A stretch of 64,000 nucleotides of DNA from Nereocystis luetkeana (taxonomy: Eukaryota > Sar > Phaeophyceae > Laminariales > Laminariaceae), in the NCBI GenBank assembly GCA_031213475.1, contig JARUPZ010000001.1, forward strand, positions 21,587,142 through 21,651,141. The letters are read 5' to 3'. This document shows, piece by piece, positions 17,033 to 60,990 of the stretch (position 1 is the stretch's first letter; each line of letters begins with the position of its first letter). The notes beneath the pieces were generated by a model. It was not told the DNA's origin, did not search any database, and was given only the letters and a program-made list of their open reading frames with translations. The position numbers were made by a program, and so were the translations under genes.

Positions 17033-17789
17033 GAAGGGTGGCGCGAGGCAGCACAGAAAGCCGGCCGATGGTTCCGACGAGTCGAGGAAGGGGCGGAGGC
17101 CTTCATGCGGAAATGGCATAAGGATGAGAAGGAGGCATCGGCAGAACGGCATAGAATAGCTGCAACCACGACCACAGCCGTTGACGCCAACGCGAGTGCG
17201 CAGAATGGCAGGGAAGAGGGGGGGGGCGAAAGGGGGACGAGGGGGAATGGGGGGGGGAGGGGGGGGAGGCGGTCTGCCCAACAGACTGAAGCCTGGTTAT
17301 GGCCATCATCGTCATGATGCACTCGCTTCTTTGGGACCCAAGTAACTAGCATGGTGCCACCTGGGCAACTTTGCGTGTCTGTATGCTTCAGTGCCTGCAT
17401 TTCGTGTTTTCTTTCCCCCCCGCCCGTGATTATCGCTTTTTGTCCCTTCTTTTTTTCATCTTTCTTTCATTCCCGTTTGTACCTCTTTGTGTCTCTGTTA
17501 GTATGGTCCGTTTTGCCTATTTTGCGTTTTGCTATCTACTTCTGTTTTTTGTTTTGTTTTGTTTTTGCTTCGCTTCATCTTCTTTTTTAGGTTTTTGTCT
17601 GCTATTAATAGTCTCCTTTTTGCTTCCCTGGTGTCCGCAGTGGTGGAGTGCGTATGCTTGTTTTTTGTTTTTGCCTCTGTTTTACTACCGAGATTCCACT
17701 CCAGAGTTATTGGAGCCTGTCCTGCGACCACGGACTGCATTGTATTGTGAGTTAATGTGAGAACAATAACAACAACAACAACAACAACA
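17033..17789 (+). mobile_element. LINE B copy 2, 5'-truncated
   Basis: Identity with LINE B copy 1 starts at GAAGGGTGGCGCGAGG (17033) and continues through the ORF tail (REAAQKAGRWF, EEGAEAFMRKWH), the G-rich run and the T-rich 3' UTR to (AAC)n at 17789. Few differences from copy 1, so both inserted fairly recently or from the same source. Both copies carry the same CTATTAATAG in the 3' UTR, so the motif was in their parent. Confidence 0.87.
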
Positions 17790-18297
17790 GTATGGGTCCG
17801 CCAACATGAAACACCAAATCTGGGCAAGCCTGAGATTCTTATTGGGGCGCCATCTTCAAACAAACTTGAGCATAGGCTATTATATACTGGTAGGATTTAG
17901 TGTAAAGTTCACGACTGACCCGCTTTTTTTAACCAACTTCTCAACAATCTCCAAAAAGTGAGCATGTTGGTCTTATTCTTAATAGGCTCTTTTTTAATCG
18001 TGGGACTACACCATACTGTTTGTACTTGATACTTTGTGCAAGAAAAGCTTGATAAACATAACGCCTGGGGCAGCTTTTGCAAGCACATGAAAATTAAAAT
18101 GAGCATATCAAAGCTGTCGGCGGCGGAAAAATCGCACGTACGTGCTATTCGCATGTAAATTCAATAGGGTTGTATGTACGGTATAGCAGGGGTCGTTGAA
18201 GATATGGTATGGCCTACATGGTACCAAGTGGAATCAGGGCGCCAGGTGGGCTTCCAACGGCTCCTGCGGAGGGCTGAATACATTTCTGCACCATTAA

Positions 18298-18396
18298 CCC
18301 TTTTAGGACTGCAGTCTCGTTTTGGGGGCAATTGGGGACAAATTTCTTGGAATTTGAGTGCCTTGTCTCCAAAATGGGACTGGAGTTCTAAAGGGG
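18298..18396. mobile_element. MITE family 3, copy a (TTAA-flanked, piggyBac-like ends)
   Basis: 99 bp foldback flanked by TTAA on both sides (18294-18297, 18397-18400). Ends CCCTTTTAGGACTGCAG and complement, then GTTTTGGGG. A TTAA target with CCC-starting ends is the known signature of the piggyBac superfamily. No coding capacity. Confidence 0.85.
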
Positions 18397-18439
18397 TTAA
18401 GGGGCAGTGGGGTTCCGAATGGTATTATAGTGAGGCGAG

Positions 18440-18492
18440 CGAGCGAAGCGAGCCTTTTTTTACTTGGTTTTTAACCAAGGAAAAAAAAGCCT
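18440..18492. repeat. Long hairpin, ~20 bp stem
   Basis: GAGCCTTTTTTTACTTGGTT pairs with AACCAAGGAAAAAAAAGCCT around a 2-4 base loop. It lies 45 bp after a family-3 MITE. Could be a short foldback insertion. Confidence 0.55.
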
Positions 18493-18796
18493 CTTCATAA
18501 CGGCTCGGGTACGAGGGTAGGGTGCCTGTTTTGATTTTTTCTGTATGTGTGTGTGTCAGTTGGTGTGTGGATTCAACATTTTTTTGGTCCACCTTTCACC
18601 ACCGCGCTCGACGCACACGCCACCAAATCCAGTCCCGGCGGGCTCTGTGCACGCACACACACGCAAGACACTTTCTCGTCCTGGTGGGGTGGAAAATCGT
18701 TTACAGTTCGTCGAGCTAGGTGCGGCAACGTGTGTAGGCACGTCTGTGCTGGGCCGTGTTCAAAATACAAAATCATAACGGTTTTTGTCCATGTGC

Positions 18797-19014
18797 CAAC
18801 AGCAGGCAGACTGCGCCTGTCCACAGCATGCACACTGTGCCTGCCCACAGCAGGCAGACTGTGCCTGTCCACAGCAGGCAGACTGGTCCTGTCCACAGCA
18901 GGCAGACTGGGCCTGTCCACAGCAGGCAGACTGGGCCTATCCACAGCAGGAAGATTGAGCCTGTCCGCAGCACGCAACTGCAGGCAGACTGGGCCTGTCC
19001 ACAGCAGGCAGACG
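18797..19014 (+). repeat. 24-bp minisatellite, about 9 units
   Basis: Unit CACAGCAGGCAGACTGGGCC plus TGTC, with a shortened unit near 18975. As 24 is a multiple of three, all frames stay open, giving spurious 8-residue repeat peptides (STAGRLGL, HSRQTGPV). Confidence 0.85.
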
Positions 19015-19079
19015 GCTTTGTTTTTTTAGCTCTTTCTTCTACCTACGTACGTACCTGGTAATAACTAACGAACCCCAAC

Positions 19080-20140: not shown

Positions 20141-21180
20141 GAGATGCACCCACGACGGCGTACAGTAGTACAGTAGTCGTACGTGGTAGATATTCCTTCG
20201 TGTTTGTTCGTTCAGCACAATACGAAATAATCCGTATGCGCCCAGCATGATGCATCGCAGATATGACTACTGCAGGTATTACCGAGGTCGCGCCTCATTA
20301 CCACCAATAATTACTAGTATGGGCCCATCGCGGGGTCAAAGTACGAAATGGGACCCGACCAGGGTTTCAGGTGGTGAAAAACGAGCAAGTTCATATACGA
20401 GTAGCCTTGCATGTGCGTGCAAGTTCTCCGCCGCTGCATAGCTGAACGTATGAAACAGACCTCTGCTGTACAGGTACAGGTACCTCTTTTACAGGTACCA
20501 GGCACAACCAGTTTGTACTGCTGCTGTACATGGTATGCACGAGATAAATATGAGCAAAAAACAGGACCGGAGCGCAAGAGACCAGTCACCAAAAGAAAAG
20601 CGTACTCGTGCTGCTGTGCATGCGGAGACGGCAGGGTATTCTTTGTTTGCCGGTTGACACTCGCACTCTTCAAAACTTACGGCCGAAGTTACTGCTGTTA
20701 CGAGTGTCCGTGCCCTGCGCTCTGCTGAACCCTTCTAAATATTCAATTATTATTAATATTAAAAGTATTAATAGTCATTTATCCTTACCACACCCACATA
20801 TGATACCAGGTATGATATGTACCTATATGACCTGACATTCAAAGACTGCTGTACCCAACCACCAGAAGCCAAGCTACAGCAGTAGCTATACAGCAGTGTA
20901 CGACAACGTACGAAGAGGAGGCCGATCCGAGCTTATCTGGGGAAGGGGAGCAGGTGCATCCTACTGCTGCACGGCAGTCTGAGTACAGCATTAGCATTTT
21001 ATACCTGGTAATAAGAGTACACTCTCACACGTAACGGCTGCCGAATCAGCAATTGATACAAAAACTCTGTATTGTTCTTCTGTCTTCCCTACTGCTACGA
21101 GTATACCAGGTACCTGGTACCAGTTATGGCGTACGTATAATTTACGGAGTACCTACGTACGAGTACGTAGTGCCCGTTAA
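20141..21180. other. Intergenic or intronic, CAG/CTG- and CCAGGT-rich
   Basis: Holds many copies of TACAGCAGTA/TACTGCTGTA and TACCAGGTA-type words (21103-21122 has three overlapping) and an AT-rich patch at 20740-20775 with GTATTAATAG. No coding block seen; may be intron of the SH3 gene. Confidence 0.4.
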
Positions 21181-21726: not shown

Positions 21727-22958
21727 CTGACTATTGGGATGCTTCAGACCAGACGTCGACTGCTTGGGGATAGTACAACAGCTTAGACGGCCACAACAGC
21801 AACGGAGCGCTGAAGCTGGAAGAAGACCCCGATTCACCCCGCCATCAAACAACGCAGCCCCGAATTCAACATGCCTGTGACACATCTGGAAACCTACAAA
21901 ATATTTAAAAAAAACAAAAATTGAAACACAAAAAAAATCATTCCCGTCGACTTTTTGGTGTTTCGTAAGAAAATCCAGAGGGCCGGTACATCCACAGGCG
22001 CCCTATTGACGCCTATAGTAGGGCTTGAAATAGTCTTGGCGCTGCCAGTGACGTGGAGACTGTAACTGGGAGTGTACATAGGCGTCGATATCTCTTGAAT
22101 CTTTTAAAGCGGCCCGGACAAACATGCAAATGCTTGCGGTTTTATACTACTACTACTGTAAAAAGTCACAGGGCCTTGCTTGGTTTCTTTTTGCCATCGG
22201 GGGATTACGCATTGCACAATGATGGGTCGAACCTCGGACCCTCGGACTGCTTGGAAAAATGAGCTGGAATTGGGCTAGCTTTGAAACTAGGTGTTGTAAC
22301 GGAAGTTCGATTGAGTTGGTCAAGCTTTTTCATCAGGTAATTTAGCGGAACCGCTCAGATATCGGCCAGTAGGAAAATAAGCAGCCAGACAAGATAGATA
22401 CCGACCGCAGAACTACGCACGGCAGTAACTGTTGTACCATAATGAGACAAAATACTACTACAACAGTACTGCTGCTGTGCTGCTGCCGCCGATGTACGTA
22501 CTCATTCGGCATCATGTTTGATTGTTGATGTATGGTACATACATGGAGTACAGGCTGCCGCTTGCTGCAGGATATCTGCACGAATACACGCGCCTGCGCG
22601 CCAGTGGTGTTGGTTGTGTGTTGTTTGCCCAGGATTACAAGACAAGTCTGCTGAAGCTGCAAGTTTTTCGCCTGGCTGGCCACGACTACTGCTGCAATCG
22701 GTTTGGTGTTCCAATATGTACTCAAACTGTTGTTTACGGTATTATGCTTGTTGGTGATCTTGCTCGTGTTGGTGCTGGTTGGCTTTTTGTTTCCTGCTGC
22801 TGTGGCTGCAGTAGCAGCAGCGGGTATTATTGTCTGTAGCGTCGGGCTCTTGCTTGCGGCCCGGTACCGGCAAGCATCCAAGTGTTTGTTCGGAGTGCAA
22901 CAGTATTATTCTTCGTTGTACTGCGAAAATACGTATTACGGGGGACCAAGAGCCGGTC

Positions 22959-23300: not shown

Positions 23301-23408
23301 TAGGACCTACCAGTACGATGTACCAGGTATGGTTTACATAAAAACCTCCATATTCAACCATTTTTACTATTAATAACAATATCTGGTCTTATTAACTATG
23401 GCCCCCCG
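23301..23408. mobile_element. MITE family 1, copy e, left end damaged
   Basis: The right end (GGTCTTATTAACTATGG then CCCCCCG and TA) is intact; the left end keeps only TAGGACC. The interior carries three short extra pieces compared with the other copies: CCAGTA and CCAGGTA near 23308-23330, and TTAATA at 23370-23375. Confidence 0.7.
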
Positions 23409-23620
23409 TAAGACTAGGTTTTCCCTCATTACAAGTACTTCGACCCGAAACTGGTGAGACTAGTGTTGAAGTCGTCAGCGACCACGAAGTGGTGCGCATA
23501 CAGAACACACGACCATAGTGATACCACGAAACAGCAATTCAAATGATGTACAGCGGCACTTGTGCATAATAACCGAGATCAAAATTTTGAGACGCTGCGA
23601 TATCTTCAAGGTGGTTTCTT

Positions 23621-23715: not shown

Positions 23716-25756
23716 ACTTCCAGAAAAACTGCAGACAAAAGTATGTGGAAACTTCCATGGTAGTACTTAACTTACTTGTAGTTGAAGGTAGAGAGATTTT
23801 TTATTAAAAATTGGTCAAATAAGGTGGAAGCTCCCATGGAACTAGATGGATATGAGGGAAGTTTCCCTTGAAGCTGATCGTACAGTATTGATAGGTTTGT
23901 TGGTAGAAGTATAGTGGAAGCTTCCATTGAAGTCCATGAAATTGGTGAAAGTTTCCGTCGAAGGTAGGAGTGAAAGCTTGCACGAGCCGCCACATACGTC
24001 ATTCCACTAGCTTTCACTGGCATTCATCTACTCACACGAGCTCTCACCAGCATTCACTTTTTGCAGTCGTACTGCTGTCCCGGGTGTTCTGCAGTACACC
24101 TTTGTGAAACAGGAAGCTTACGTGGAGGCCAAAGACGAGCGTCCACGAGCTCGTTGAACTTCTATTAATAGTGCGTAAGCTTCCACGCATTTCGACGAGC
24201 TTCCAACGACTTCCGTCTACTTCCACGAGCGTTTCCGCACTACCACCGACTCCTATGAAATATCCTCCCATGAAATTTTATCGAAGACTTAGTACTTCTA
24301 CGAGCTTTTCCACGCCAGCTCTTCTAAACTTCCCGACGTTGAACTAACGAGGTCACACGAAACCCTCACCCAACCAACTCGAGCCCTCACCCTTCAAATA
24401 ACGGCATTCCTGGCCCCAGCCGGAGGATGGTTTGGCCGGTGATTTTTGGAGACGCTTGTACTGCACGTTGCAGTACGTGGAAAGAATCAGGTCGCTGTAA
24501 ATACAAGACATAAGCTCAGACGATACCGCTTCCTAACCCGCCCTATAGCACTACTCTCCGCCCCACCCAAGCAGAGAAAGCGGCTGGGTGGGTATGTCTT
24601 TTGAAGACTCTAAAGTCGATGTGCTTGGAAATCATGTCTTAGTGTTTTTTCCTGGAAGCACTCCAGATCCACGCGCGGACACCAACCTGAGCCACCCGAA
24701 ACCCATCTCTAGCGTTAACCCTAAACCTATCCCAACTAAAGGCAGTCTTGGTCGGTTTGTTTTGGAAGACCTGTCGATGTGCTTGAATATATTCTAGGCG
24801 GTATGCGGGCTCTAAATACGGATCGTGCTGCGTACCGTATCCCTGCTTGGCGATGCGATTTCCATGGAAGCGGATGTGACTGCCGCCATAAAGGCTGCTG
24901 CGGCTGCACGGAACGTAACCTTCATTTGTTTTAGTTAGCCCTTACCTTCCATCGTAGCTAACTTCCTTTTCTGCAAGCTGGAGGTAGATCATGCTTCCAT
25001 GCACTTCCAATGTACGTAGCTGGAAGGACATCTTCTTCCGTTGACAACAGTGTATATCCTAGACATACATATGTATGGTGGTCTATTTTCGCAGAAGCTG
25101 ACATTGCAGCTGCCATGGAGAGAAAAACAGACTCCGACGTAACGTTCTGTGTAAGCTTGTATCGACTTCCACGGGAGCTGCGACGTATTTCCAGTTTCTT
25201 CCGTAGAAAAAAATATTTTCGCCCGTTCGCTCTCATCGAAGCTTCAACGCGTCCAATAACGAACGAGTAGAACACCTGTTCATCATGCACGCTTCATATC
25301 GCTTCATTTTCACGATTACAAGTAGACTACTCTAAGTACGTGTACGTGTAAATATCGGTTACCAGGTTGTGCATTTGGCGTACGGATTTTTTGTCGTGCT
25401 GTCCATCAAAACATCTGGGCCTCTCCAAGTCCGCGCTGCCTGGGTAGTCCACGATGCAGTGTACATGGTGTAGGGAAATTTACTAATAGTAGGTTATTTG
25501 GAATACGCATTATAATCAATAAGACTCTTCCAGGTACAGGTACTTCACTGGTTCAAGGCAAAGTATCCTTAAGGGGGCATATCCGGCTATGGCTGTAAAG
25601 CGCACCACGGCCTAGGCAGAAGGATAGGAGGAATGAGTCGGACGAATTGCCCGGTGGGGTGGGTGCAATCTGTTTGTGGTGGATCGCGTCCTCATATTCG
25701 CACCTGGGGAGGGGATACTTCCGACTACAGTACGCAGTGAAGAGTGCTGAGTTCAT

Positions 25757-27575: not shown

Positions 27576-27784
27576 AAAAATGATTAGCGGGAAGCGCGAG
27601 AGCGTGAGTTAGAAACGTTCAATGAAAGTTAACGAGCAGTGGGAATTTTGAACCCTGTGCGGGATAAAAAATCAGGCAGGTACCGGGGGGGAGAAGGAAT
27701 GGCACCTGTGACCACGGCTTGCCCAGAAAATCGTTGAAAGAAAAAAAATCGTACGTAACAGGTACGAGTTAACCTGGAACTTAA

Positions 27785-27874
27785 CCCCTTTAGAACCGCA
27801 GTTCCGTTTTTGGGGACAAACCAGTGAAATTTCAAGTAATTTGTCCCCAAAACGGGACTGCGGTTCTAAAGGGG
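27785..27874. mobile_element. MITE family 3, copy b
   Basis: 90 bp near-perfect hairpin: CCCCTTTAGAACCGCAGTTC and complement, TTAA on both sides (27781-27784, 27875-27878). The best-preserved copy and likely the closest to the consensus. Confidence 0.88.
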
Positions 27875-28379
27875 TTAAAAGTGATGGCCCAAAAACAAAG
27901 AAATCAAGTCGGATTGCCCAAAACAAATACACCTTTGTCCGCAGCTATTTCGTACGAACTGCAGCCCCTAGTCTTCCAAGCAACCGCTTGGTGGGACTAA
28001 ACTCTGCCCCTAAATGCATCGCATGGGAGCTCGCTAGACAACACCACCCAAAGTGCCACACCGAATGGTGGCGATTGTCGCATTTCAAGGCAATCGAATA
28101 ACCACGACCAAAAGAACTGCAATTGTTATTTGGCAACATCACGTTCTACGAGCTTCTGGCGATTTCTGCATTATGTACTCTGAATGTATCGTATTTGCTT
28201 CGGTGACTTCTTCTACGTTTACGTGGACATCAAAACGTTATCAGCAAGAGCTCCAACTAAACCCTAAGCTTGGGGTAACCTTGTCCTGGTCTTCTTTTGA
28301 TCAATCCAAACATCTACCCAAAAAATACGTGGCGCTTGAGAGAAGCCCAAAACTGGACAGAAACGACCCGCCCGAATGA

Positions 28380-30450
28380 ACTACTGTACAACAACTGTAG
28401 ACAAACAAGTAAGTATGTATTAATAATAGTTCAAATAAATCCAATATTTTAAAAGCAGTAAATCAAACACCACACCACGAACGACCAAGAATGGTTACTA
28501 ACCCTAACCCTAAGAAACCAGGGCGTCCCGAGCGAAACAGAAACCAGTCGCCAATTTGTATACCTGGTAGCTCGTTTTCCAACAGTTACAACAACAGCAG
28601 AACTAACTGCAGACAGAGCAGAGCAGAGCAGATGGAACACTTGAAGGCCCCTCAGTCTCCCGCCCCTAACCCTTTGCGGACCACAGCAGTCCGGGTCCAC
28701 TGTAGTACTGTTTTCATGTTCGAAACCAAACTGCTAGTCGTCGAGCCCCCTCCTCCTTTCCCTCCCCGGCTTGAAGGATGGCTGCGAAGCTATACTTCAT
28801 TTCGAGTCCCTCTACAAGTAACTCCACGCGGACTCCCTTGCTACTTCCCAGACATCCTTTGTATACAGTAAAGTAGACAATGCAGATCCTACAATACATG
28901 TTGCGAAATAACTTCCACGAGCCGTAGCATACAGGTTTAGCACCCTGCGAACACCAGTAGAGTTCTCCATGCTGTAGATACCTAAGTTCCTGGGAATATT
29001 CTCCATCAAAAGCGGGAAAAGAAAACAGGCCCTGCTTGACTCCCCTGATCCACAAGGACCTGATCCCGCCCGGATGTGGTCCCAGTTGATACCCTGCTCC
29101 CGACCGCAAGGTCCGGAAATATAACTAGCCGTCCGCAGGAACTGCCGGAGGCCGATAGCGCGAAGCGCTAACCGTACACGGTCAGAAATCGTCGGATGCA
29201 AAAAAAACCCGTCCCAACCCGGGAATCGAACCCAGCATGAAAATCATGCTGCTGTGCACCCCTTCACGTTATGTTTAGACTAGTTATAGCCGCAGTAAGT
29301 GTACCTCCAAGCCTATACCTGGTAGAAGAAAAGGAATACCCCCGGGAAAATGATCTCGTTCTACACAGCAGTCGTGAACTCGGCTCGCGAACATATGCAC
29401 AAGAGCGAGCAGTGCCACGCCCGGCAAACAGTATCTATCTACAGTAGATCTTGCAGACCACATAAATCATGGATCTATCAGCCCCAAATGATCTACAGTA
29501 GATCGAGAAAGAGTGGTCTATCCCATATGTTTGCTGCGTGCTACCAGTGTATTACACGAGTATCCCAAGACGAACTCCCCAAGCCGATCCCCTAGCCGTA
29601 TGACCCTACAAACTAAACCCAACGTGGACACCTTGCACGATTCCGATAAAGACGGCCATTGTTAGTATGACCTAATCTGAAGCCAACACCCTCGACACCC
29701 ACACATCGATCCCCTCTCGCACTATTTCCCCCCAAAACCAGGGTCCTTGTCGACCCCCTAGCTAGGCATTTTCCAACACCAACGATCAAACTTCAACTAC
29801 AACTCTGGAAAGGTCTGCTACATGCTTTTGTTAGTCACAACTCCAAGTCGATGCCCTCCACGACCCATAAAGGGGGCTGCACTGTTCTACGTGATTTTTA
29901 AACCGAAATTCAAGTCGACGTCCTCAACGACTACGAACAGCAGCTCCCTCTCTGGTGGGGTGGAACGCACGCACGCACCGAATAAGGCTGTCACACTATT
30001 AATAGGGTGATGAGCTGACACACACACCCTGTTACCCATTTTAGAGGCGTTTTTCTACAGAGCAAGGAGAGCGATAGAGCGCACGCAACCATAGTGGTGG
30101 CTTTGGAAATATGTATCTGAGGCCTTCCCATAGACACATCGCTAGGCGTTTGCCTCTCTCCCCCTCCTTGTCGATAAGTTCACCTATTGCCTATCAATAG
30201 CGTCATATGCGCCGGAGAGGGTGTGATTGCCTCAAGAAATATATTGCGTGGTAAACAGTGGTCGGGTTGGTCGTTCGGTTGCACCCCAACTGCACGTATT
30301 TTTCCTCCACGACTCTGAAGCGGATGTTTCCTAAGTAAGTGGCGCACAAATAGCTCGTGATCGTCTTTTGTTTCATACCCAATTCGAAGTCGAGTGCCTC
30401 CACTATTGTCAACAGGATTTGGTGCGCGGCGCACGTCAAGCTCGTGTTGA
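28380..30450. other. No gene supported; degenerate ~60 bp motif repeats
   Basis: The motif AATTCRAAGTCGAYG..CCTC.ACGAC recurs near 29670, 29840, 29905 and 30380. A tRNA 3'-half-like piece (T arm, then T8) lies on the minus strand near 29205-29245. This is the 3' flank of the GT92-like gene; no polyadenylation signal is asserted. Confidence 0.35.
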
Positions 30451-30610: not shown

Positions 30611-33600
30611 CTGACAATACAACACAAGGCGAGGCAAGGCAACGCACGACAACAAACAAGACGATACAGAGGTATCGAGTATGGAATGCACAAACCATCC
30701 AGTACGCGCCAGCAGATAACACCCCAAGAACTATACCAAACACTCACTATTAATAGGCGACGGCCAGCTAAGGCCTTGGCCCTTCGGCTACTGCTCAGTT
30801 GAATAAAGAAACCTAAGTGTGTCTCTGGTCCCCAAGTGCTTTGTCCTTGCAGTGGCCTTACAGTGGAAGCGCAGTCCTGGTTGGGCTACGAAGTTGGCAG
30901 CCAAGCCAATTCGGCTCGACTTTTGCGCTAAAAGCAAGTACACCGTGAAATACAACTAAACTTACACATTGTTGTTATTAATAATAGAACTACATACTTA
31001 GATCACAACCCCTGAGCGTGCTCGGTTGGTGCATCCCTGGCCTCTCAGAGCTCCCACTTCCAAACCGCCTCCTTTCATTACTTGCCGGACCTTTCCAGCA
31101 GTTCTTTGTTTTCTCGGTCATTTCTTCCTTTCTTCTTCTTTCGTTTCGTGTGCGTGTTCTCCGAGCACGGCATCGCGGGAGGACCCGGCACCGTCGCGCG
31201 TGCCAGCGGGTGCTGGCGGGTAGAGGGAGGGTTGCAAGGAGCGCGGTCGCCGCTTTCGTGCCTAGGCGTCGCGTGTGCCTCGAGACACGAGGGGTGCATG
31301 AACGGGCCTTGTCTGGCTTCGATTTATGATTGCTGATAGAGTATGTACGAGTTTATACAGGTTGTTCGGGACGGCAAGAACATATATAAGCGGTGCTTAT
31401 TTTTGCGACCACGCTGAAGTTGGAAGAGGGAGGTGTGCAGTTTGAAAACCAACGTTATCGAGCTGGCGAACGACGGCCATGGTGAGCACCGGGCTTCACG
31501 CGGGGCGGGCGACGGGGCTGATTGTGGCAGAGAGTGATAAAAGCTTTACCGGGACCGAATCGGTAGCGAGGTGGTCGCGAGAGGGGCGGGCGGCGTACGA
31601 GGCTGAGAGAGAAGCTCTTCAGTGCGATTTTTTCTTTTCTTCTTTTCGACCGGGTGTAAGGTGTTCCAATCAGGCAGAAAAATATTACGCGAGAGGGGAC
31701 GGGGATTTTTTTTCCTTTCCGAGTTTTCGGTTTCATTTTCAATGTTTTTGCTGCTGTGCCGTGCTGTGCTTTCGCTCTCTTCGTTCATAAAGTACAGACA
31801 TCGAGCATATCGCAGTAGTACCCTACCTGGGGTGTATGTACGTACGTACGACATCCGCGACGCGAAGCGTATATGCGGCATCCAAGCTGACGTCGGAGCT
31901 GTTTTTTCCTGAAGCATGACGGCGGGACTCTTGGCATTATCAAGTCGCCGGTTTGCAATTACGATCCTTGAAAACACTAAACTCAATCGTGGACCTCTGT
32001 TCGCTTCGCATAATTTGATGTACTTTTTCCCTTCCTGAGCGAGCGTAGCGGGCGGCCCGCCCGCGGAGCGAAGCGCCTTGTAGCTGCATACATAGGGTAG
32101 GTCAACGATTCCTACTGCGTGCTCTAGATGTTTCAGCGCACATAGATTCTTGATCTGTGTCGTCGAGCTCATGCTGCCGAGTGAGAATCAAACAACCTGC
32201 ATGATCTACGACATGTTTTCCTGGATTAGATATGTACAAGACCTTAGGGAGTTCGAGCCACCGAAGGGTCAACGGAAGTTGCCCCCTTGGTGTTTGGAGT
32301 TGAGACCGCGTTGTGGTCCATTGCAGCCAAAAAGGCGGGGAAGTGGTACCGGGGGATCCTTGAAGCAGCCGAACGGTCATGGTGAGGTGGCACGAGGCTG
32401 AGGCTGAGATGAGTAGACAGTGCCGCGCATCCGCCGTGGATGGTGTCCAAGGGAATGGGGGTGGAGGGGGCAACAACAAACAGGAGAAGTGGCAGAAAGC
32501 CCGACCAAGGGAATGCGGAGAGGGGGGGGAACAGGAGGGGTAGAAGGGAAACTGCGGTAGACGAAAGTAGGAAGGAGATGGCAGACAGGGTAGCAAGGCA
32601 CCAGGCCGACTAGGAAGTAGGACATGACCATACTACTAGTGCCACCAACTGGTGCAGCTGGTTCGAACGTGGTCTTCCCTTGTCTTTTTTTTTTTCTTTT
32701 TTTTTTCTTTCTTGCGATGACTCTCCGTGATTTTCATTTTATTTTATTTATTTTCCTTTTCTGATTGATAAGCCGTACTGAAGGAGCCGTGTGGCGTGGT
32801 TGGATGACGAACCTGCTCTGCTCGTTTCGTATTGTCTGACGCCAAGGGGCTGGGCATAATTGACGATCGCAGGGCGGAGACGGCAGTCTGGGTAGCAAGG
32901 TACCAGGCGGATTAGAAGGGGGAACCTGGCTATACTACTCGTACCACAAACTGCTGCCGCCACCTGGAAGGTGCTTTGGGCTTTGGTCTTCCTGTTATTT
33001 TCCCTTTGTTATTTATTTTTTCTCGGTTCTTTGTCTTACTCTGTTTACAAGCAGTGGTGTTTTTGTTATTTTTTTCTATTTTCCAGCTCGTTCTTTTTCA
33101 AGTGTTGGCCACCTCGCCTGCGGGGGGGGGACACGACAGACTGTGTCTCCTAGTTTTTGCTTTCATTTTGTTCTTTTTCTCTTTCGATTTGTCTACTTTG
33201 TTTTTGTTTCTCTTTGATCGTTTCTTTTCGTTTCTCTATTTCATAGATTGTGTATGTGGTGCCTGTCGTATATATTAATAGTATGATGACATGGCATTGC
33301 ATTGCCCACTGCAGTGGATACTGCATACCTGGTACGTGGCAACGTAGTATCTCTGTGGCGTAGCTTTGTGACCACAGAACTTGTATCTCTTCTAGGATTG
33401 AAGAATCGGCACAGACACTGGTTGTGCAGGATGTCGACGGGTAGAAAGAACGGTTTAATGTGAAGAACACACACATCCTGCACAACGCCTCGTAGCAACG
33501 AGATAATACATTCGTAGATCGTGATATTTACGAGGTATACTGGTAAGTCGCAGCATCAAGCCCACCTAAGAACTCGAGCCCCGCCCTAAATAACAGTGGC

Positions 33601-48559: not shown

Positions 48560-49632
48560 TGATTACGGTAGGCTACGGGAGGTCCACCACAAGATGCTCC
48601 TCCGATGCATCGGGTGGCGAAAACGAAAGCGCGAAGACCACATTCTATCCTACGCTAGCGCGCTTCTCAGGACAACATCTGAAAGCGTTGAGACGACGGT
48701 ACGCAGACGTAGGCTCTTGTTTGCGGGCTTTGTGACACGAATGGGAGAGGAGCGTCTGCCGAAGAGGGTGATGTTTGGGGAGATGGTTGGGGGTAAGGGT
48801 TACTCCGGAGGACAGGAGTGGGACTGGATGAGGTACCTTGAGGAGGACCTCAAGGAGTTCGGCATCAAGCTCGAAGGGTGGCGCGAGGCAGCACAGAAAG
48901 CCGGCAGATGGTTCCTACGGGTCGAGGAAGGGGCGGAGGCCTTCATGCGGAAATGGCATACAGATGAGAAGGAGGCATCGGCAGAACGGCATAGAATAGC
49001 TGCAACCACGACCACAGCCGTTGACGCCAACGCGAGTGTGCAGAATGGCAGGGAAGAGGGGGGGGGCGAAAGGGGGACGAGGGGGAATGGCGGGGGGGGG
49101 GAGGGGAGGCGGTCTGCCCAACAGACTGAAGCCTGGTTATGGCCATCATCGTCATGATGCACTCCTTTCTTTGGGACCCAAGTAACTAGCATGGTGCCAT
49201 CTGGGCAACTTTGCGTGTCTGTATGCTCCAGTGCCTGCCTTTGGTATTTTCTTTCCCCCCCGCCCGTGATTATCGCTTTTTTGTCCCTTTCATTTTTCTT
49301 TCATTCCCGTTTGTACCTCTTTGTGCCTTTGTTAGTATGGTCCGTTTTGCCTTTTTTTTGCGTTTTGCTATCTGCTTCTGTTTTAGTTTTGTTTTTGTTT
49401 TTCTTTTGCTTAGCTTCATCTTCTTTTTTTTTAGGTTTTTGTCTGCTATTAATAGTCTCCTTTTTGCTTCCCTGGTGTCCGCAGTGGTGGAGTGCGTATG
49501 CTTGTTTTTTGTTTTTTGCCTCTGTTTTTACTTGAGATATTTCTTCCACTCCAGAGTTATTGGAGCCTGTCCTGCGACCACGGACTGCATTGAATTGTGA
49601 GTTAATGTGAGAACAACAACAACAACAACAAT
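48560..49632 (+). mobile_element. LINE B copy 1, 5'-truncated, with (AAC)n tail
   Basis: Encodes the C-terminal block of a LINE related to but distinct from LINE A: LREVHHKMLLRCIG, REDHILSYASALLRT, RRRRLLFAGFVTRMGEERLP, a Trp-rich helix, then Ala/Thr-rich and Gly-rich tails, with a stop at 49157. The 3' UTR is T-rich, ends CCAGAGTTATTGGAGCC...GAGTTAATGTGAG and then (AAC)n. The open frame continues upstream without a stop into an 11-bp minisatellite (48330-48502) that is not LINE sequence. Confidence 0.85.
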
Positions 49633-51060: not shown

Positions 51061-51418
51061 TCCAAATGCTTTGAAAGAGAGAAAAAACGAAAGAAACCAA
51101 GGCACGTCATGTCATGATGGGGCTCGGCCCGGCCCCTCTCGCTGTTGGTATTTCCCCGCCCGACCCGGCTCGGCCCAATGACTTTTCGAAACCCTCAACC
51201 CCGCCCGGCCCGGACCATGATATTGTCAGCGAGTCCTATGAGACCCGGTCGGCCCATCCAAACACGAGAGAGATTTTGCGAAGGCCACCTCGGCTGCTCG
51301 CGGCATTAAATTTCGGGTGGATGTATACTGCGGATATTGCGAGCGACTGCGAGCGACGACTACTATCTATGAAGAACCGTATTTCTATAGTAGGTTCAGC
51401 ACTTCGAATTCGGAAGTC

Positions 51419-51475
51419 AAACTACTTGAAATTTGAGTGTTTGGTCCCCAAAACGGGACGGCGGTTCTAAAAGGG
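51419..51475. mobile_element. MITE family 3, right half only
   Basis: ACTACTTGAAATTTGAGTG, CCCCAAAACGGGACGGCGG and TTCTAAAAGGG followed by TTAA (51476-51479). The left half is missing. Confidence 0.7.
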
Positions 51476-51704
51476 TTAAGTACTCCAAGGGTTTATTTCT
51501 GCGGGTGCTACAAATAACCGAGTATTTCGGCCGTTGGTACACATGGTGTACTCGCAAGTATCAAAATACTCTTTTTTTGCGCAGAATACTCGGCGTATGG
51601 AGTATTCGACCATCTGCGCCCATTGTTTTGCAGAAAATATTAACAGATTGTCCCACGAGTGAGAGTTGGGGCAAATTACTCTCGAGAGAAGATGGGAATG
51701 AAGT

Positions 51705-52149: not shown

Positions 52150-52780
52150 CACTCTTGATTGACACCAACAACCCTGTTGTACTACTACTGTACCACAAAC
52201 ATTACCAGTACAGAATCGAATGCTTACTACCACACGCACCTACACACGTGTGTACGCATAGTATATACCACACGCAGCAGTCGTAGTGCCCACTCTTATG
52301 ATGGTAATACCTACAGTACTACTGAGCTATACGGGTAGACGATCGATCGTTTACCCAGCCCAGGGTAATCCTAACAACGCCCCCCCCCCCATATATATTA
52401 TGAACGGCGGGATCTTTGGGGCGTCAGAACCGTATACGCCTGTACGCTGGCCTACCTGCTTCGTTTCATTACCTGGGGAACCAGGGAGGTGTGTTTTTGG
52501 GGATGCACGCGCAAACCATTTATATACAAGAAACATTCGAAGTGAGATTCGACCTACTGAGCTACCAAAATATAGGGGTAAAAGATCGATCGATTACCCT
52601 GCCCAGGGTAATCCTTATAACCCTATCCATTGACGGTCCACTACCATGGCGATCCCGCTGCCTAAATTGTCTTGGCGGTTCCTCAACCCGGCGGTCCCGC
52701 TGCCCATAAAAACTGCTGTCCCCTAACCCCGCGGTCCCTAATGCATCGTACAATTTAGTAGTAGTGGCAGTAGCAGTAGG
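52150..52780. other. No gene; short inexact repeats
   Basis: ACTGAGCTATACGGGTAGAC-GATCGATCG..CCCAGGGTAATCC at 52320-52375 recurs at 52557-52612 (ACTGAGCTACCAAAATATAG..GATCGATCG..CCCAGGGTAATCC). C run at 52381-52390. Confidence 0.5.
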
Positions 52781-52839
52781 GGTTCACCCATAGCGTTCGG
52801 GTTAGGGTTGGGGTTAGGGCTCGGGTCGGGTGGCACCTA

Positions 52840-52973
52840 GTGGTCGAAATTAGGCACCACAGCCAAAAAACCCGGGAAACATCACTATCAGGGTGTAACC
52901 ACGGCAAGTAGTGGTTGCCTTCAGATACTGGGTATTTCCGGGGGTTTTGGCCGTGGTGCCCAAAGTCGACCAC
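52840..52973. mobile_element. MITE family 2 (TA-flanked, GTGGTCG ends)
   Basis: 134 bp hairpin; left arm GTGGTCGAAATTAGGCACC..ACAGCC, right arm the complement of GTGGTCGACTTTGGGCACC. TA at both ends. The right-hand TA is followed by TTAATTAA and a second TA, absent at the matching junction of the copy at 53509. Confidence 0.78.
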
Positions 52974-53168
52974 TATTAATTAATAGACACCACCCGACCC
53001 GAACCCTAACGCTAACCCGAACCCGAAAGCTATGGGGTGATCAGTGCTTGGATGATGTGGCTTGTGAAATCTCTAGGTTGATTCGGCCGGCCTCGATGCT
53101 GTGCTTGGAAAGGCTTTAGGCTGATTTGGCCTGTTCGGGATGCTGTGGCTTGGAAAAAAATAGCCTAA

Positions 53169-53270
53169 TGGTCCACTTCAAGCACCACGGCCAAAAACAA
53201 TGGAAATATTCACTATCAGGGTGCAACCACGGCAGTAGTGGTTACCCCCAGATAGTGGATCTTCCCAAGC
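53169..53270. mobile_element. MITE family 2, partial copy
   Basis: GGTCCACTTCAAGCACCACG, then ATTCACTATCAGGGTGCAAC and CAGTAGTGGTTACCCCCAG: left arm and loop of the family-2 element, right end lost. It forms the centre of the large inverted repeat described separately. Confidence 0.6.
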
Positions 53271-53508
53271 TAAGCTATGCACGCACTCTGATCGGCTAAG
53301 GGGTGTTCTGTAAGCGGCCCAACCAACCTAGAGTGTTTCCAAGCCACAGCATTCCAAGCAGGCCAAATCAGCTTAGAACCTTTCCACGCACAGCATCCGA
53401 GCCGACCGAATCAACCTAGAGATTTCACAAACCACAGCATCCAAGCACTGATCATCCTTTAGCGTTCGGGTTAGGGTTAGGGTTAGGGTTCGGGTCGGGT
53501 GGTGCATA

Positions 53509-53577
53509 GTGGTCGACTTTAGGCACCACGGCCAAAAGCCCCGGAAATATTGACTGTCAGGGTGCGCAACCACGGCT
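53509..53577. mobile_element. MITE family 2, left arm only
   Basis: Begins after TA with GTGGTCGACTTTAGGCACC, then ACGGCCAAAAGCCCCGG and GTGCGCAACCACGGC, where it stops. Sits next to TTAGGG-like repeats as the copy at 52840 does. Confidence 0.6.
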
Positions 53578-54103: not shown

Positions 54104-54487
54104 TTGTTGTTGTTGTTGTTGTTGTTCTCACATTAACTCACAATTCAATGCAGTCCGTGGTCGCAGGACAGGCTCCAATAAGTCTGGAGTGGAAGAAATA
54201 CCTCAAGTAAAAACAGAGGCAAAAACAAAAAACAAGCATACGCACTCCACCACTGCGGACACCAGGGAAGCAAAAAGGAGACTATTATTAATGGCAGACA
54301 AAAACCTAAAAAAGACGATGAAGCTAAGCAAAACAAAACAAAACAAAACAAAAACAGAAGCAGATAGCAAAACGCAAAAAAAGGCAAAACGGACCATACT
54401 AACAAAGACACAAAGAGGTACAAACGGGAATGAAAGAAAAATGAAAAAAAAGAAGGGACAAAAAAGCGATAATCACGGGCGGGGGGT
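54104..54487 (-). mobile_element. LINE B copy 3, 3' UTR only, reverse
   Basis: Starts with (GTT)n, the complement of the (AAC)n tail, followed by the complement of the CCAGAGTTATTGGAGCC end, and breaks off at ATAATCACGGGCGGGGGG. About 380 bp of 3' UTR only. Confidence 0.85.
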
Positions 54488-54965: not shown

Positions 54966-56740
54966 ATACCCAGTTCAAATACCTAGGCGACATTATCCAC
55001 GAAAACGCTGCCCTCTCGCTCGAAATCGACAGACGGATCCGCCTCATGCGAGCATGCCTCAAACGGTTCGGCCCGGAGTTGTATGGTAGGACGACCGCCT
55101 CCCTTAGCCTTAAAGTCCGAATGCTGAAGGCCGAGGTGATTGAGACCCTGCTGTACGGGTGTGTGACGTGGACCCTCAGAGCGGAACACTTTGCCAAGCT
55201 TCGAACGGCTCACCACCAAGTCCTGTTGCGAGTCATTGGCTTCCAGCGCCGACTTCGTACTGACCATGCCACCCTCTCGTACGCGAAGGCCGTCAAGATG
55301 ACACGTTGCGAGAGCATCGAAGCGACCATTCGTGAACGGCGGCTCTTCTTTGCGGGGGGCGTGGCACGGCAAAGCAAGGAGCGATTACCCAGTCGGGTAA
55401 TGTTCGGGACGATAGCTGGTGGGGAGAACCCGAGACCAGGCGGACAGTGTAAGACTTGGCATAGATGCATAGTCGAATGCCTTAGGGAGTTTCGAGCCAC
55501 CGAAGGGTCAACGGAAGTTGCCCCCTTGGTGTTTGGAGTTGAGACCGCGTTATGGTCCACTGCAGCCAAAAAGGCGGGGAAGTGGTACCGGGGGATCCTT
55601 GAAGCAGCCGAACGGTTCAGGGTAAGGTGGCGCGAGGCTGAGGCTGGGATGAGTAGGCAGTGCCGCGCATCCGCCGTGGATGGTGTCCAAGGGAATGGGG
55701 GTGGAGGGGGCAACAAACAGGAGAAGTGGCAGAAAGCCCGACCAAGGGAATGCGGAGAGGGGGGGGAACAGGAGGGGTAGACGGGAAACTGCGGTAGACG
55801 AAAGTAGGAAGGAGATGGCAGACAGGGTAGCAAGGCACCAGGCCGACTAGGAAGTAGAACATGACCATACTACTATTAATAGTGCCACCAACTCGTGCAG
55901 CTAGTTCGAACGTGGTGTTCCCTTGTCTTCTCTTTTTGTTTTGTTTTTTTCTTTCTTGCGCTGACTCTCCGTGATTTTCATTTTATTTTTTTCTCTTCCT
56001 TTTCTGATTGATAAGCCGTACTGAAGGAGCCGTGTGGCGTGGTTGGACGACGAACCTGCTCTGCTCGTTTCGTACTGTCTGACGCCAAGGGGCTGGGCAT
56101 AGTTGACGAACGCAGGGCGGAGACGGCAGTCTGGGTAGCAAGGTACTAGGCGCATTAGCAGGGGGAACCTGGCTATACTACTCGTACCACAAACTGCTGC
56201 CGCCACCAGGAGGGTGCTTTGGGCTTTGGTCTGCCTGTTATTTTCCCTTTCTTTGTTACAGATTTTTTTTCCTTGGTTCTTTGTCTTACTCTGTTTACAA
56301 GCAGGTGTGTTTCTGTTATTTTTTTCTTTTTTCCAACTCGTTCTTTTTCAAGTGTTGGCCACCTCGCCTGCGGGGGGGGGGGGACGACAGATTGATTCTC
56401 CTAGTTTTGCTTTGAGGTTTTTCTTTCTCTCTTCCTTTTTCTCTTTCGATTTGTCTACTTTGTTTCTGTTTGCTCTTTGATTGTTTCTTTTCGTTTCCCT
56501 ATTTCATAGATTGTGTATGTGGTGCCTGTCGTATCTAGTATGATGACATGGCATTGCATTGCCCACTGCAGCAGTGCTTACTGCATACCAGTACGTGGCA
56601 ACGTAGAATCTCTGTGGCGTAGCTTAGTGACCACATAACTTGTACCTCTTCTAGGATTGAAGAATCGGCACGGACACTGGTTGTTCTGGATGTCGACGGG
56701 TAGAAAGAACGGCTTCATGAATGTGAGGAACACACACACA
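54966..56740 (+). mobile_element. LINE A copy 2, 5'-truncated, ORF end and 3' UTR
   Basis: Similarity to copy 1 begins at 54966-54969 within the RT thumb (QFKYLGDIIHENAAL). A frame of 296 codons (54890-55780) stays open through LYGCVTWTLRAEH, GFQRRLRTDHATLSYAKAV, RRLFFAGGVARQSKE and the Gly-rich tail to a TAG; its first 25 codons are host flank. A pyrimidine-rich 3' UTR with TTTTC runs follows, ending in (AC)n at 56740. Typical 5' truncation by incomplete target-primed reverse transcription. The open frame suggests it is the youngest A copy here. Confidence 0.9.
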
Positions 56741-57001
56741 TACCCCCCCCCCCAAAAAAAAAGTTCGAGGCCACACGCTCAATGCTCAGGGGGGAAAAAA
56801 AAGTTTACGGGTATTCATGGACAAAAACACGCTCGTGGCGCGCGTTTTTACCTGATTGCGGCCGAAACGGATCAGGTATTATTATACGTACCTGATTTTG
56901 GCGGCAGCTTTTTTTAAAATATCCGAGAAATGTGTGGACCAAAGCTGATGAAAAAAAACAAAACAATGGTGCGGTAATTACTCCCTTTTTATTTCCGGTA
57001 A

Positions 57002-57132
57002 GGGTCGTTCTTAACGAGGAGTGTTTTTCAGTTTTTTCAGTTTTTTTCTCGGTATTAACCGGAAGTTTCGGTATTTTAGAAACTTCGGGAAAATACTGGA
57101 GAAAACTGAAAAACAGTCCTGAAGATCGACCC
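57002..57132. mobile_element. MITE family 4 (TAA-flanked, GGGTCG ends, Tourist-like)
   Basis: 131 bp foldback flanked by TAA (56999-57001 and 57133-57135), ends GGGTCGTTCTTAACGAGG and complement GATCGACCC, with a TTTTTCAGTTTT..AAAACTGAAAAA stem. A 3-bp TAA/TTA duplication with G-rich ends is the pattern of PIF/Harbinger-derived (Tourist) MITEs. Confidence 0.65.
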
Positions 57133-57555
57133 TAAGAAGACTTAGTGCGTATAAGAATTCCAGATCAAAAAAGGAAAAATCGGTGCGAGAATTTGGAGGC
57201 CTGTCTGTGCTTCGTGGCCTCTCGCAAGATGGCGGGCGCGTAATAATCGTAGATTTTGTGGATGCCATCGTTATATATGAAATTTGTGTCGGGTATAAAA
57301 AAAACGCCACATCTCTTCATGGAGATAGAACTACTGTTGTTGTAGGCGATAGCAAGGGTATCGATCGTTGGGGCATGCCTCGAGGAATGTTCACACCGTT
57401 AAACGGGCTTTCGTATACGAGGTAGGATTTTTTAGTGCTGTTGACAATTGATGGACACTATAAGGAAATTAATTCGTAGGTTTTTCTCCAACTCTCGACC
57501 AGATGAAACCGGATTCCGAAAATATCAACGTCGGCAATGCCTGCCGGCCCAGTAA

Positions 57556-57600
57556 GGGTCATTCTTATCGGAGAGCTTTTTTCCCAATTTTTCGACATTT
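57556..57600. mobile_element. MITE family 4, left end only
   Basis: After TAA (57553-57555) comes GGGTCATTCTTATCGGAGAG, matching the left end of the copy at 57002, then a T-rich interior; no right end was found. Confidence 0.4.
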
Positions 57601-58189
57601 TTTCAGCGCAATTTTTCAATTGTCCATATTTTCCTGATTTTTTATCCCAAATGTTGGAATGTTAACGAACTTGATATTTTGGGTTTTGGAGAATTTCACG
57701 AATAAATAGTGACAGACCGCCTCCGTTATTGATACGTATCTCCAATTATTTCCAAACTTTGGAAAAAATATGGAAAAAACGCTAACTCATCGCCACAATA
57801 CCATGCAGTCCGGGGTCGCAGTATACGGTTTTGATCAAAAATACGGACAAGTATCAACTTTTATTTCGAACTTCTTTCTTTGATTACATTCGCCACACGT
57901 GACATGTGTTCCGTCCAAGCAGGTGGATACCATCTCGCCAGACGGTTAAGAACCGATATTTCTTCTGAGCAGCAGTGAGAGTTGTTAATACTACAGTATA
58001 GTATAGTACGTAGCAAGCCCTAGCACTGCTGTTACCAAATTCGGAGGCGAAATAGTTTCAAATGGTTGCGAAAGCGCAGGACGAATACAAAAGCTAGTCT
58101 TGGCTGGCCCAGCCTGGAGCCTGGAGTGGGCAAATTACTTCCTGGGGGGGGCAACTGGCTGGAGTACTTAGAGTACTACAGCAGTGAGT

Positions 58190-58545
58190 GCCAGTATTTC
58201 GGGGGCATATTGCCGAGTACTCGCAATACTTCCGTGTTCCATGCTCTAGATACTTTGAGTTCTGCAGGTATTTCGGATGGTTTGGGTAATGATACTGCGG
58301 GTACTGCTTGTGCTCGGGGTTCTGCACTGCTCATACTCCCAGTATTCGCAGCGTTTCGACCGCCAGTGCCGGAATACTCTCAGGAATCGGAGCACAAAAG
58401 GTACTCGATGCTCCGAGCATCTGGGAGCATCCGTGTACTATTAATACTACTGGCTGTACATCACGGTCTTGAAACAAACGCTTGACTCTTCCCCCCGTCG
58501 AGCTCGCCGAACGTCGTCATATATATATGTACATTGCGTAGGGAG
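58190..58545 (+). repeat. Dispersed repeat S, copy 2
   Basis: Partner of 51705-52115. It differs by several short indels, one of which is at 58438-58447 (CTATTAATAC) and another at 58158-58170 just before it (TACAGCAGTG against a plain TA). Confidence 0.7.
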
Positions 58546-58549
58546 TGGG

Positions 58550-60027
58550 TGTGGAGTCGCGATGGCCTGATACTGCACGCTGGTTGGTGTACTGCTGTAC
58601 TATTGCTGTACTATATTACCAGGGTATACTGCTGTTACAATACCACAACAACTCACAACTACTGCTGTGGCACCAGGGTTGCTATTGCTACTGCCTGAAA
58701 ACCATCAGCAAGCACTACGTAGGGCACCACCAGTTTTTCTCGGGTGGAGGGAACGCCATGGTTGGGGACCGACAATGGATAGTGGGCACTACGACTGCTG
58801 CTTGTGTGTGGTGTGTGGGCGTGTGACCACTACTGCTGTAGGACTGCTGCGTATGGTGCGTGGTGTGCGAGCGTGCGTGCTGCACCAATCCTCCGATGCT
58901 GTATATACGTACGAGTATGCACGTACATATGTAGGGCAGAGGGTACTGCTGTAGGGTACGACAAGTCAGTACGGCCGGGTCAGTACCAATGGATATACCT
59001 GGTACCTGGTTATTGTGTTATCCGGTGATGTACCCTGACCAGTTCTAACATTACACAACTACTGCAGTTGGGGGGAGTCCCCTTGCAACGACTGCTGTGC
59101 CATGGCGTGGGGAGGGTAGGACCTGTGGGAGTGCCGGCGCGCAGCCTAGATTACTGCAAGTAGTCAGGAGATACCAACCAAGTATCAACCGTGGAGAAGG
59201 ACCGAAAAATCCTCGTTTAATTACTGCGACTCTACGAAAAAATGCCCTGCACACTGGCAGAAAAAAAGTAAGCCAATCCCCATTATCGAGGGTGTCTTGT
59301 ACCCTGCTTACCCAAGATCGCCGGCCGACGCCTCGGCTGCGGTATGTGGTACGCTTGCTGTCTGTTTGCCGTCGATCTGCACTGCTGCCGTATCGCCGTG
59401 GTCGCTGTCTGCGGGTGTGCAGCTGTGGTGCTCAGATCTGTTGTGATGTTGCTATTCGTGACCTCTTTGCACCGCTTTTCGATCAGATTCGTTGTTTATA
59501 AAGTTGATTATCGACTGGTCGGTTGAACTCACAACTGACGTTTATTTTATTTTTTTCAATGGACGTCAGTCGGCCTTGCGTCGGCTCTGAATTCAACCGA
59601 TCGGTCTATACTCAACTTTGCAAGATAGATGCGTGAACCTTTCGCGCGTTTTCGTTTGTCTCCCATCGCAAAATTTGTCCAGAATTTTGTTTTTTTACAA
59701 AATGCTTCGCGAAATTACTTGCAAAACATTACCAGGGTATCTGATATCTGGTGACGTTTTCGTATTTCATCGATCGGCAAACTCGTCCCCTGTCCCCTGA
59801 TAGATCTCAAATATCAAATTGAATTTCAGAGCCTGTCTTCTCCAAAATTCACATGGGCGGGGGGGGGGGGGGGGCGAAATAAGAACGGGTGGAGGAGTAC
59901 CCATGGACGCCAGAAAAGCGCTCATTGCAGCAGGAGCGCAGGCAAAGCACTACTATATCACGCAACCGCCGTGTCATCTGCTGGGCGTGCATGGGTGCAC
60001 GAGTGCACCAGAGTCATACTACGTAGT

Positions 60028-60068
<41 letters not shown>

Positions 60069-60990
60069 GCGTGTGTGTGTGTTCGTTCTTTCAACCCGTG
60101 TGCCGTCATCCACCGCAACACCCAGACAAAGAAATACAACTGCTGCTGCTGTTGTCCGAGTACTGACGACATAGCAGCAGCAGCGGTATATAGTACCAGG
60201 CAGTAGTAGTCCGTTGTAGCAACCCAACAGTGGTAGTGCAGCAATCAGAGAGTAGGCAACCCAATGTCACGTCGTTCATTAGAAACAAGTAGAAGTATCG
60301 TCTCGACGAGCCTGGTAGCACCCAAGAAAGAGGGGAGTCACCGGCCAGCAGTCGATCGCTAGGGGAATAAGGGAACAGGAAAACGCGCGAACGGTTCACG
60401 CGCAGCTTTCAAAAAAAAAAAAAAAAAACAATTAATCCTCCGGCGGATTGGTAAAAATAAAGCAAAAAAAGTTGAGTATCGATCGATCTGCCTATCGGTT
60501 GACGTACTTTAAAAAAAAAATGTTTCACACATATGTCATGGAACATGAAACAGGCATAACATAACAGACACATGCACAAGACCGCCACCAACCAGGACAA
60601 ACATGCCAGGAGAGCACGAAACACTCGGTGCTGTGACAAGCCAGACAAACAAAAAACATTTTGTGCAAATCTGACACCAAACTCATGAGTGTTCTTGCCA
60701 AAGTATGACCAGGGTAAAAGGACATACCAGGTGCCGATCTTTGCGGTCCACTCCTGCAGCTATTAATAGCTGTGTTGATGTGTACGGTCGCGCGATCCGC
60801 GAGAGGCCCTATCTATCCCCACCTTCCTCTGAAGATCACGTCGCCGCGCAAGATATTATGCCGAACATCTAGCGCGCTAAATTTCCGGCGACCCAGGATT
60901 CCAAACCATAAGCTACGTAACTACGTCCGGGGCGCTGATTGATACTTACTGCCTATTATATATAGCTCAAATAAAGTCAAGATCAATCGG
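58550..60990. other. No gene supported; CTG/CAG-rich
   Basis: 58,560-59,100 is dense in TACTGCTGTA words. 59860-59875 is a G run and 60410-60428 an A run. Short ORFs are driven by the repeats. Confidence 0.4.
60029..60067 (+). repeat. (CAG)13 microsatellite
   Basis: Thirteen uninterrupted CAG units, with CTG-rich and CAG-rich patches 70-120 bp downstream that could pair with it. No gene context. Confidence 0.9.

Follow-up and report, generated by a model that had tools for sequence, protein, structure and literature searches.

Why should a single ten-base palindrome recur again and again along one stretch of DNA? The stretch analyzed here (the window) is 64,000 nucleotides of Nereocystis luetkeana contig JARUPZ010000001.1, numbered from its first letter, and the palindrome is CTATTAATAG, built on the core TA-TTAA-TA. 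We propose, at a probability of about 0.83, that CTATTAATAG is an excision footprint of a TA-targeting transposon of the Tc1/mariner/IS630 type, and scars of this sort, in several kinds, very probably occur by the dozen in the window.

A sequence-only reading of the window had listed nine exact copies (17602, 24162, 29996, 30747, 37831, 38066, 49446, 55873, and 60760) and six one-base variants (20765, 23367, 33272, 41427, 44267, and 58438). All are present at these positions, and we found four additional one-mismatch sites (12283, 30191, 53847, and 61946), so that matches with at most one mismatch number 19, against 1.36 in shuffled sequence. The gross over-representation claimed for the word is borne out within the window, with 9 exact copies against 0.01 to 0.09 expected. 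In 200 dinucleotide shuffles in 500-bp blocks, the expectation was 0.035 and the maximum 1; Markov models of orders 1 to 5, with TATTAATA copies masked, gave 0.013 to 0.092. Even an unmasked order-5 model gave only 1.6, a figure inflated because nine copies in 64 kb enter their own 6-mer counts. As also noted in that reading, 17602 and 49446 share ancestry through a long interspersed nuclear element (LINE), being 93% identical across 766 columns, and we therefore count 8 independent occurrences (Poisson P = 1.2e-13 against 0.092). Descent within one repeat family was rejected as the source of the excess, as these two alone are kin among filled exact copies.

The eight-base core TATTAATA behaves likewise, with 21 copies against 0.3 to 1.3 expected from shuffles and masked Markov models. 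It is improbable in the extreme that chance, slippage, or local A+T-rich composition makes the word. Three TATTAATA copies (20751, 20766, and 28418) do lie in A+T-rich pockets, but shuffles confined to local 500-bp blocks yield only 0.6 (maximum 4), and other A/T palindromes are not comparably enriched: among the 16 A/T-only 8-mer palindromes, the runner-up has 5 copies. As for slippage, the TTAATA gain that turns CTAG into CTATTAATAG does not copy neighboring bases. The window has about 50% G+C, and CpG is hardly depleted (observed/expected, 0.94).

The exact copies, read as putative footprints of what we call the TTAA class, are listed here; neither they nor the features listed further on are assigned a strand.

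17602 to 17611: CTATTAATAG in a CTAG frame, in a LINE; same by descent as 49446 (word match and self-alignment).
24162 to 24171: CTAG frame; no paralogue found in the window (word match).
29996 to 30005: CTAG frame; no paralogue found in the window (word match).
30747 to 30756: CTAG frame; no paralogue found in the window (word match).
37831 to 37840: CTAG frame; no paralogue in the window; forms a weak TA-flanked inverted pair with 38066, 241 bp apart.
38066 to 38075: CTAG frame; no paralogue found in the window; pairs with 37831.
49446 to 49455: CTAG frame; LINE copy of 17602 (word match and self-alignment).
55873 to 55882: sister LINE copy near 32631 is an empty CTAG (self-alignment).
60760 to 60769: CTAG frame; no paralogue found in the window (word match).

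The origin of the word is best seen where sister copies of a repeat differ in carrying it, and we compared such copies by self-BLAST of the window. One LINE end is present in three copies, A (32242-33480), B (55480-56745), and C (61065-62333, inverted), which are 94% identical outside gaps. At one site A reads CTAG, B reads CTATTAATAG (55873), and C reads CTACTAATAG (61946); at a second, A reads ATATTAATAG (33272) and both B and C read CTAG. In a miniature inverted-repeat transposable element (MITE), copies at 1.7 and 34.8 kb read CTAA opposite CTATTAATAA, and the other copies likewise lack the 6 bp. A third, inverted-repeat element carries a longer, doubled form. The informative sites outside the list above are as follows.

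23367 to 23376: TTAA-class footprint CTATTAATAA in a MITE copy; 6 bp missing from sisters (self-alignment).
33272 to 33281: TTAA-class footprint ATATTAATAG; CTAG in both sister LINE copies (self-alignment).
52973 to 52986: CTATTAATTAATAG in the inverted-repeat element; a 10-bp insertion with inner TTAATTAA, where relatives read CTAG and CTAT (self-alignment).
61946 to 61955: one-base TTAA footprint variant CTACTAATAG in LINE copy C, the site of 55873, inverted (alignment).

Four TTAA-class sites in three unrelated repeats thus have an empty sister. The gain of this class is a fixed 6 bp at TA (TA to TA-TTAA-TA), its motif-free sisters read CTAG or CTAA, and the site has a single TA when empty and two TA around a short insert when filled. 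The division of the core into TA, TTAA, and TA, proposed from the letters, is the real one. One of the four informative events is an exact copy (55873); the remainder comprise one-base variants plus the doubled form. The doubling at 52974 (TTAATTAA) is compatible either with retention of both overhangs on joining or with a later duplication of TTAA. A piggyBac scar was considered and rejected, as it needs TTAA in the empty site.

These comparisons were extended by constructing an artificial empty site for each of 2129 TA-N2..10-TA places and searching it against the window for a sister match. Of 31 rows with a match, 24 were discarded by eye: seven from a tandem array at 48.3 kb, one with junction mismatches (17743), four in telomere-like sequence (53007, 53472 twice, and 53478), six that were listed insertions shifted by some bases (23365, 33276, 55868, 55871, 61950, and 61953), and six loose or tandem cases (31843, 33010, 34800, 34813, 34831, and 34838), the last of which gains 4 bp (TATG) and could be a 2-nucleotide scar. 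Seven rows at six sites were left (1744, 23368, 33273, 52974, 55874, 61302, and 61947, the last being the same site as 55874), and their inner words were TTAA (three), TTAG, TTAATTAA, CCTGG, and CCCTGG (one each). Among 36 indels of 4 to 14 bp between repeat copies, listed separately, TTAATA was the commonest inserted unit (3 occurrences; next, 2). Eight rows of this list, at seven sites, were of the TTAA or CCWGG kind, and the other 28 mixed simple-sequence or tandem changes with isolated insertions. Overall, the TTAA class accounts for four sites and CCWGG-like words for three, of which one has a mutated outer TA and one has inner CCCTGG.

This second class is also a strong one. TA-CC(A/T)GG-TA occurs 20 times in the window against 0.4 to 1.2 expected, and three gains of 7 to 8 bp at TA belong to it or to a near variant. 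They are listed with two tandem cases.

1744 to 1753: CCCTGG variant (TACCCTGGTA) in a MITE copy; 8 bp missing from sisters (self-alignment).
21104 to 21119: two CCWGG footprints with a common TA (TACCAGGTACCTGGTA), taken as a second hit in a first scar.
39704 to 39719: two CCWGG footprints with a common TA (TACCAGGTACCAGGTA).
61302 to 61310: CCWGG-class footprint TACCTGGTA; plain TA in both sister LINE copies, A and B (alignment).
61797 to 61805: CCWGG-class footprint (CACCAGGTA), mutated in one outer TA, in LINE copy C; sisters read plain TA (alignment).

At another LINE site, both A and C carry TACCTGGTA and B carries TACCAGTA, a difference that could be due to decay or to a separate event.

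An unbiased scan of TA-x-TA words ranked the same two inner words first in their length classes: TTAA among 4-nucleotide inners (21 versus 0.35; P = 3e-30) and CCAGG/CCTGG among 5-nucleotide inners (20 versus 0.69; P = 1e-22). Weaker classes were CAG/CTG, top among 3-nucleotide inners (26 versus 10; P = 2e-5), and CGAG/CTCG, third among 4-nucleotide inners (15 versus 2.2; P = 1e-8). TTAA, CCWGG, and CWG stand out as fixed inner words able to self-anneal; CGAG pairs at its outer bases only, and no empty site was seen for it in the window. Low counts were obtained for TCAGA (4), CCAGGG (5), CAGTAG (6), and CAGCAG (5), and the high inner words ATAA, CTAC, and ACCC resemble simple or telomere-like repeats. 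Six scar classes picked after the scan (TTAA, CCWGG, CGAG, CWG, CCAGGG, and TCWGA) together make up 91 sites against about 14 by chance, 10 of those 14 being in the CWG class. Exact "both-ends" scars were found for none of the CCWGG, CGAG, and CWG classes. TACGTA is also enriched in the window (32 versus 12 in local shuffles), and TACG runs differ in length among repeat copies (e.g., 3283-3300 and 31830-31850); these might be 2-nucleotide scars or simple repeats.

The two strong classes differ in where they fall. In a CTAG frame there are 9 TTAA footprints to 121 plain sites, and at other TA there are 12 to 3313 (odds ratio, 20.5; P = 2e-8), with two of the nine CTAG-framed footprints being one event by descent. 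The CCWGG class has no such preference (1 of 20; P = 0.009 between classes), and A or G precedes TA in 30 of its 40 flanks. Exact copies of the two classes are also unevenly spread, with 1 of 41 in the first 12 kb and 8 of 41 between 20 and 24 kb. One-mismatch relatives are in excess for both TATTAATA (32 versus 12) and TACCAGGTA (30 versus 15), which under simple decay would mean that about 0.1 substitution per site has accumulated after an average event.

The exact copies had been said to sit in unrelated contexts, apart from the pair that shares a LINE. This stands for most of the flanking sequence and fails on two counts. Copy 55873 and variants 33272, 23367, and 61946 lie in repeats with motif-free sister copies, and TG stands just outside one end (CTATTAATAGTG) in 24162, 29996, 30747, 37831, 38066, and 55873. 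This is 6 of 9 exact scars (6 of 8 independent ones) versus 8 of 121 plain CTAG, with a binomial P of 2e-6 to 6e-6 for a feature picked after looking. At 55873, TG is already in the empty partner and is therefore part of the target there.

The consensus of MEF2-type MADS-box sites is CTA(A/T)4TAG, which CTATTAATAG fits exactly, and like a site for a dimer it is palindromic. A regulatory site of this type, kept by selection near genes, would be suited by the one-sided TG as an extended binding site, and CTATTAATAG is given as one promoter word in the accessible part of a paper on rice MADS proteins (PMC8745200). The core degeneracy that such a site should display is missing: nine CTA-W4-TAG words have the TTAA core and just one other site exists in the window, in contrast to the varied cores given for rice in that part of the paper. 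In LINE and MITE copies the word also arises by a sharp gain of 6 bp, and the unrelated TACCWGGTA acts likewise. Because of the empty sites and the lack of core degeneracy, we regard this explanation as very unlikely.

As possible donor elements we looked for TA-flanked inverted repeats, for shared extensions of scar words, and for larger insertions between repeat copies. The interval 37832-38074 was tried as a donor and set aside: it is TA-flanked and 11 of 12 end bases match, but 7 of these come from the palindrome itself, and 2 of 36 scar pairs resemble it; an actual element at this place is conceivable but lacks support. Among candidate donors of the TTAA scars, the mariner-like MITE family, of about 105 to 113 bp, with ends TTACGGGGGACC...GGTCCCCCGTAA, comes nearest.

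34746 to 34856: MITE with ends TTAC...GTAA and TA on both sides.
40362 to 40466: second copy of the TTAC-ended MITE.
About 1687-1799, 40594-40698, and (partial) 23325-23411: further copies of the TTAC-ended MITE.

Among 14 candidate MITE ends at ≤5 mismatches, 10 were judged genuine, and TA lies just outside 6 of the 10. A lone end similar to TTACGGGGGACC is present at 22936. If such a MITE left overhangs of TTAC on excision, the inner TA alone could pair; trimming and filling in of the mismatched C would then yield TTAA. The ends are near, not exact, and we offer the link between this MITE and the TTAA scars as a suggestion.

Several observations weigh against excision as the source of the word. 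The window yielded no convincing complete element that has flanking TA and ends of TTAA or CCWGG, nor was any larger TA-bounded insertion seen between repeat copies, the 10 candidate pairs all involving the tandem repeat at 50 kb or its relatives. Pfam scans revealed no transposase domain in six-frame translations of about 1 to 15, 30 to 45, and 45 to 60 kb or in 20 chosen open reading frames (ORFs), with 15 to 30 kb and the last 4 kb covered by chosen ORFs alone; a sub-threshold match to Glyco_tranf_2_4 (19 bits versus a cutoff of 27.5) was the single hit, and no gene was recognized. Scars of TTAC and GTAC, which might be expected if the MITE were the donor, number 0 and 1 in the window. A 7-bp TGGCTAT indel (32927/56170) lies in CCTGG, and its partner has no TA. 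Because of the TG the site is one-sided, and a symmetric target would not lead one to expect this. Usual Tc1/mariner footprints are 2 to 4 bp according to the available part of PMC7913693, so CCWGG is long. Finally, 55873 is alone among the nine exact copies in having an empty partner in the window. Six others have no sister copy there, and two are filled in all copies: a third LINE copy of 17602 and 49446, near 54286, carries a longer variant and has no empty partner in the window, so these copies are uninformative about the origin of the motif. The footprint status of the other exact copies is therefore taken from their class.

Dense scars with no convincing matching-end donor in the window might instead point to a TA-directed mechanism that involves no mobile element, such as a transposase that has been domesticated, or cutting of CTAG or TA by an endonuclease followed by end joining that adds fixed bases. 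An element-free endonuclease gives no reason for duplication of TA together with a fixed TTAA or CCWGG, whereas fixed, class-specific inner words between duplicated TA are recorded products of transposon excision. We consider such a mechanism improbable.

Transposon excision would account for the word as follows. A cut-and-paste element of the Tc1/mariner/IS630 kind would enter at TA, with CTAG favored, and duplicate it. On exit, its transposase would cut a few nucleotides inside the 5' ends of the element, leaving short 3' overhangs of element sequence. In the TTAA class these overhangs would anneal as TTAA, the ends being either TTAA itself or TTA-N whose mismatched final base is trimmed off and filled in again, and ligation would give TA-TTAA-TA. 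An overhang of TTAA would be wholly self-pairing, and CCAGG and CAG would pair with a single central mismatch, hence the choice of A or T at the center. A transposase, a stagger of a certain length, and a donor element are all things that such a course of events would imply, and the step from a fixed insertion at TA to an excision footprint is drawn by analogy with Tc1/mariner transposition. There, in the available parts of PMC3878927 and PMC8151067, TA is duplicated, the nontransferred strand is cut inside the element, and 3' overhangs are repaired to a fixed footprint; the available part of PMC2170065 has ISY100 cutting two nucleotides inside the element.

We put forward a broader picture tentatively, and hold it to be rather doubtful. 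This genome may have long been traveled by TA-targeting transposons with self-complementary 4- or 5-nucleotide overhangs, whose departures were sealed almost without error, leaving scars at roughly one per kb that outnumber resident elements, as they do in this window. Near-palindromic ends might then be a host-sparing adaptation, midway between the scars of Sleeping Beauty and the scarless piggyBac. If so, over-used TA-x-TA words would be a fossil record of transposons perhaps no longer present. If the excision reading itself is right, departures of elements, usually read locus by locus, would become countable from word statistics, even with no visible donor, and scars at single TA sites could serve as lineage markers. 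The uniformity of the scars contrasts with rice, where just 8 of 94 excisions (all superfamilies pooled) left the duplicated target alone, as given in the available part of PMC4423477, and it would allow a test of whether self-complementary ends lead to clean repair of the donor site. Among the matches listed in a limited literature, mostly titles and abstract openings, none had previously described a genome-wide word of this kind.

Other features of the window were noted in passing. A family of short inverted repeats with ends like TTAACCC...GGGTTAA lies at 18293-18402, 27780-27880, and 41714-41823, with a related stretch at 51399-51479; we take these ends to resemble those of the piggyBac type. 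Inverted arms with telomere-like TTAGGG/TTCGGG repeats occupy 52780-53560. A tRNA-His call at 18830-18901 lies inside a 24-bp tandem repeat and is probably false, and an Rfam scan of the window gave nothing at gathering score. A LINE protein encoded by a contig in an Oligoflexales bacterial metagenome-assembled genome (JALZUO010000167.1) shares 83% identity with the LINE stretch at 48585-49010, probably through eukaryotic contamination of that assembly; CTATTAATAG occurs at 4 places in its 2.8 Mb, and a DDE_3 search of it found nothing. Viral contigs gave no match to the LINE proteins or to the LINE and MITE patterns, and phages gave none to one LINE protein.

How do these words compare with the products of known systems? 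Minos leaves CGAG or CTCG between two TA upon excision. The corresponding words here, TACGAGTA/TACTCGTA, have 15 copies versus 1.2 to 2.8 expected; a literature search on their identity with the Minos footprint turned up no paper. IS630 is said to prefer TA within CTAG, a preference shared with the TTAA class. It is a bacterial member of the IS630-Tc1-mariner group, whereas the host here is eukaryotic-looking and no transposase was seen in the frames scanned. Sleeping Beauty and Frog Prince leave C(A/T)G between two TA (PMC3878927, in the part available, as for the papers cited below), and they resemble the present case in the short, element-derived word between two TA, with A or T at its center. 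They differ in that the inner word has 3 nucleotides, as opposed to 4 in TTAA and 5 in CC(A/T)GG, and in that no donor was identified here. piggyBac is alike in having TTAA at its site, but it requires TTAA before insertion and leaves no scar (PMC3878927 and PMC8151067), whereas the empty site here is without TTAA. Stowaway MITEs in grasses also leave Tc1/mariner-type scars at TA, with several distinct footprints; those scars come from one intron compared across species (PMC1925063), whereas here a uniform word is spread over 64 kb.

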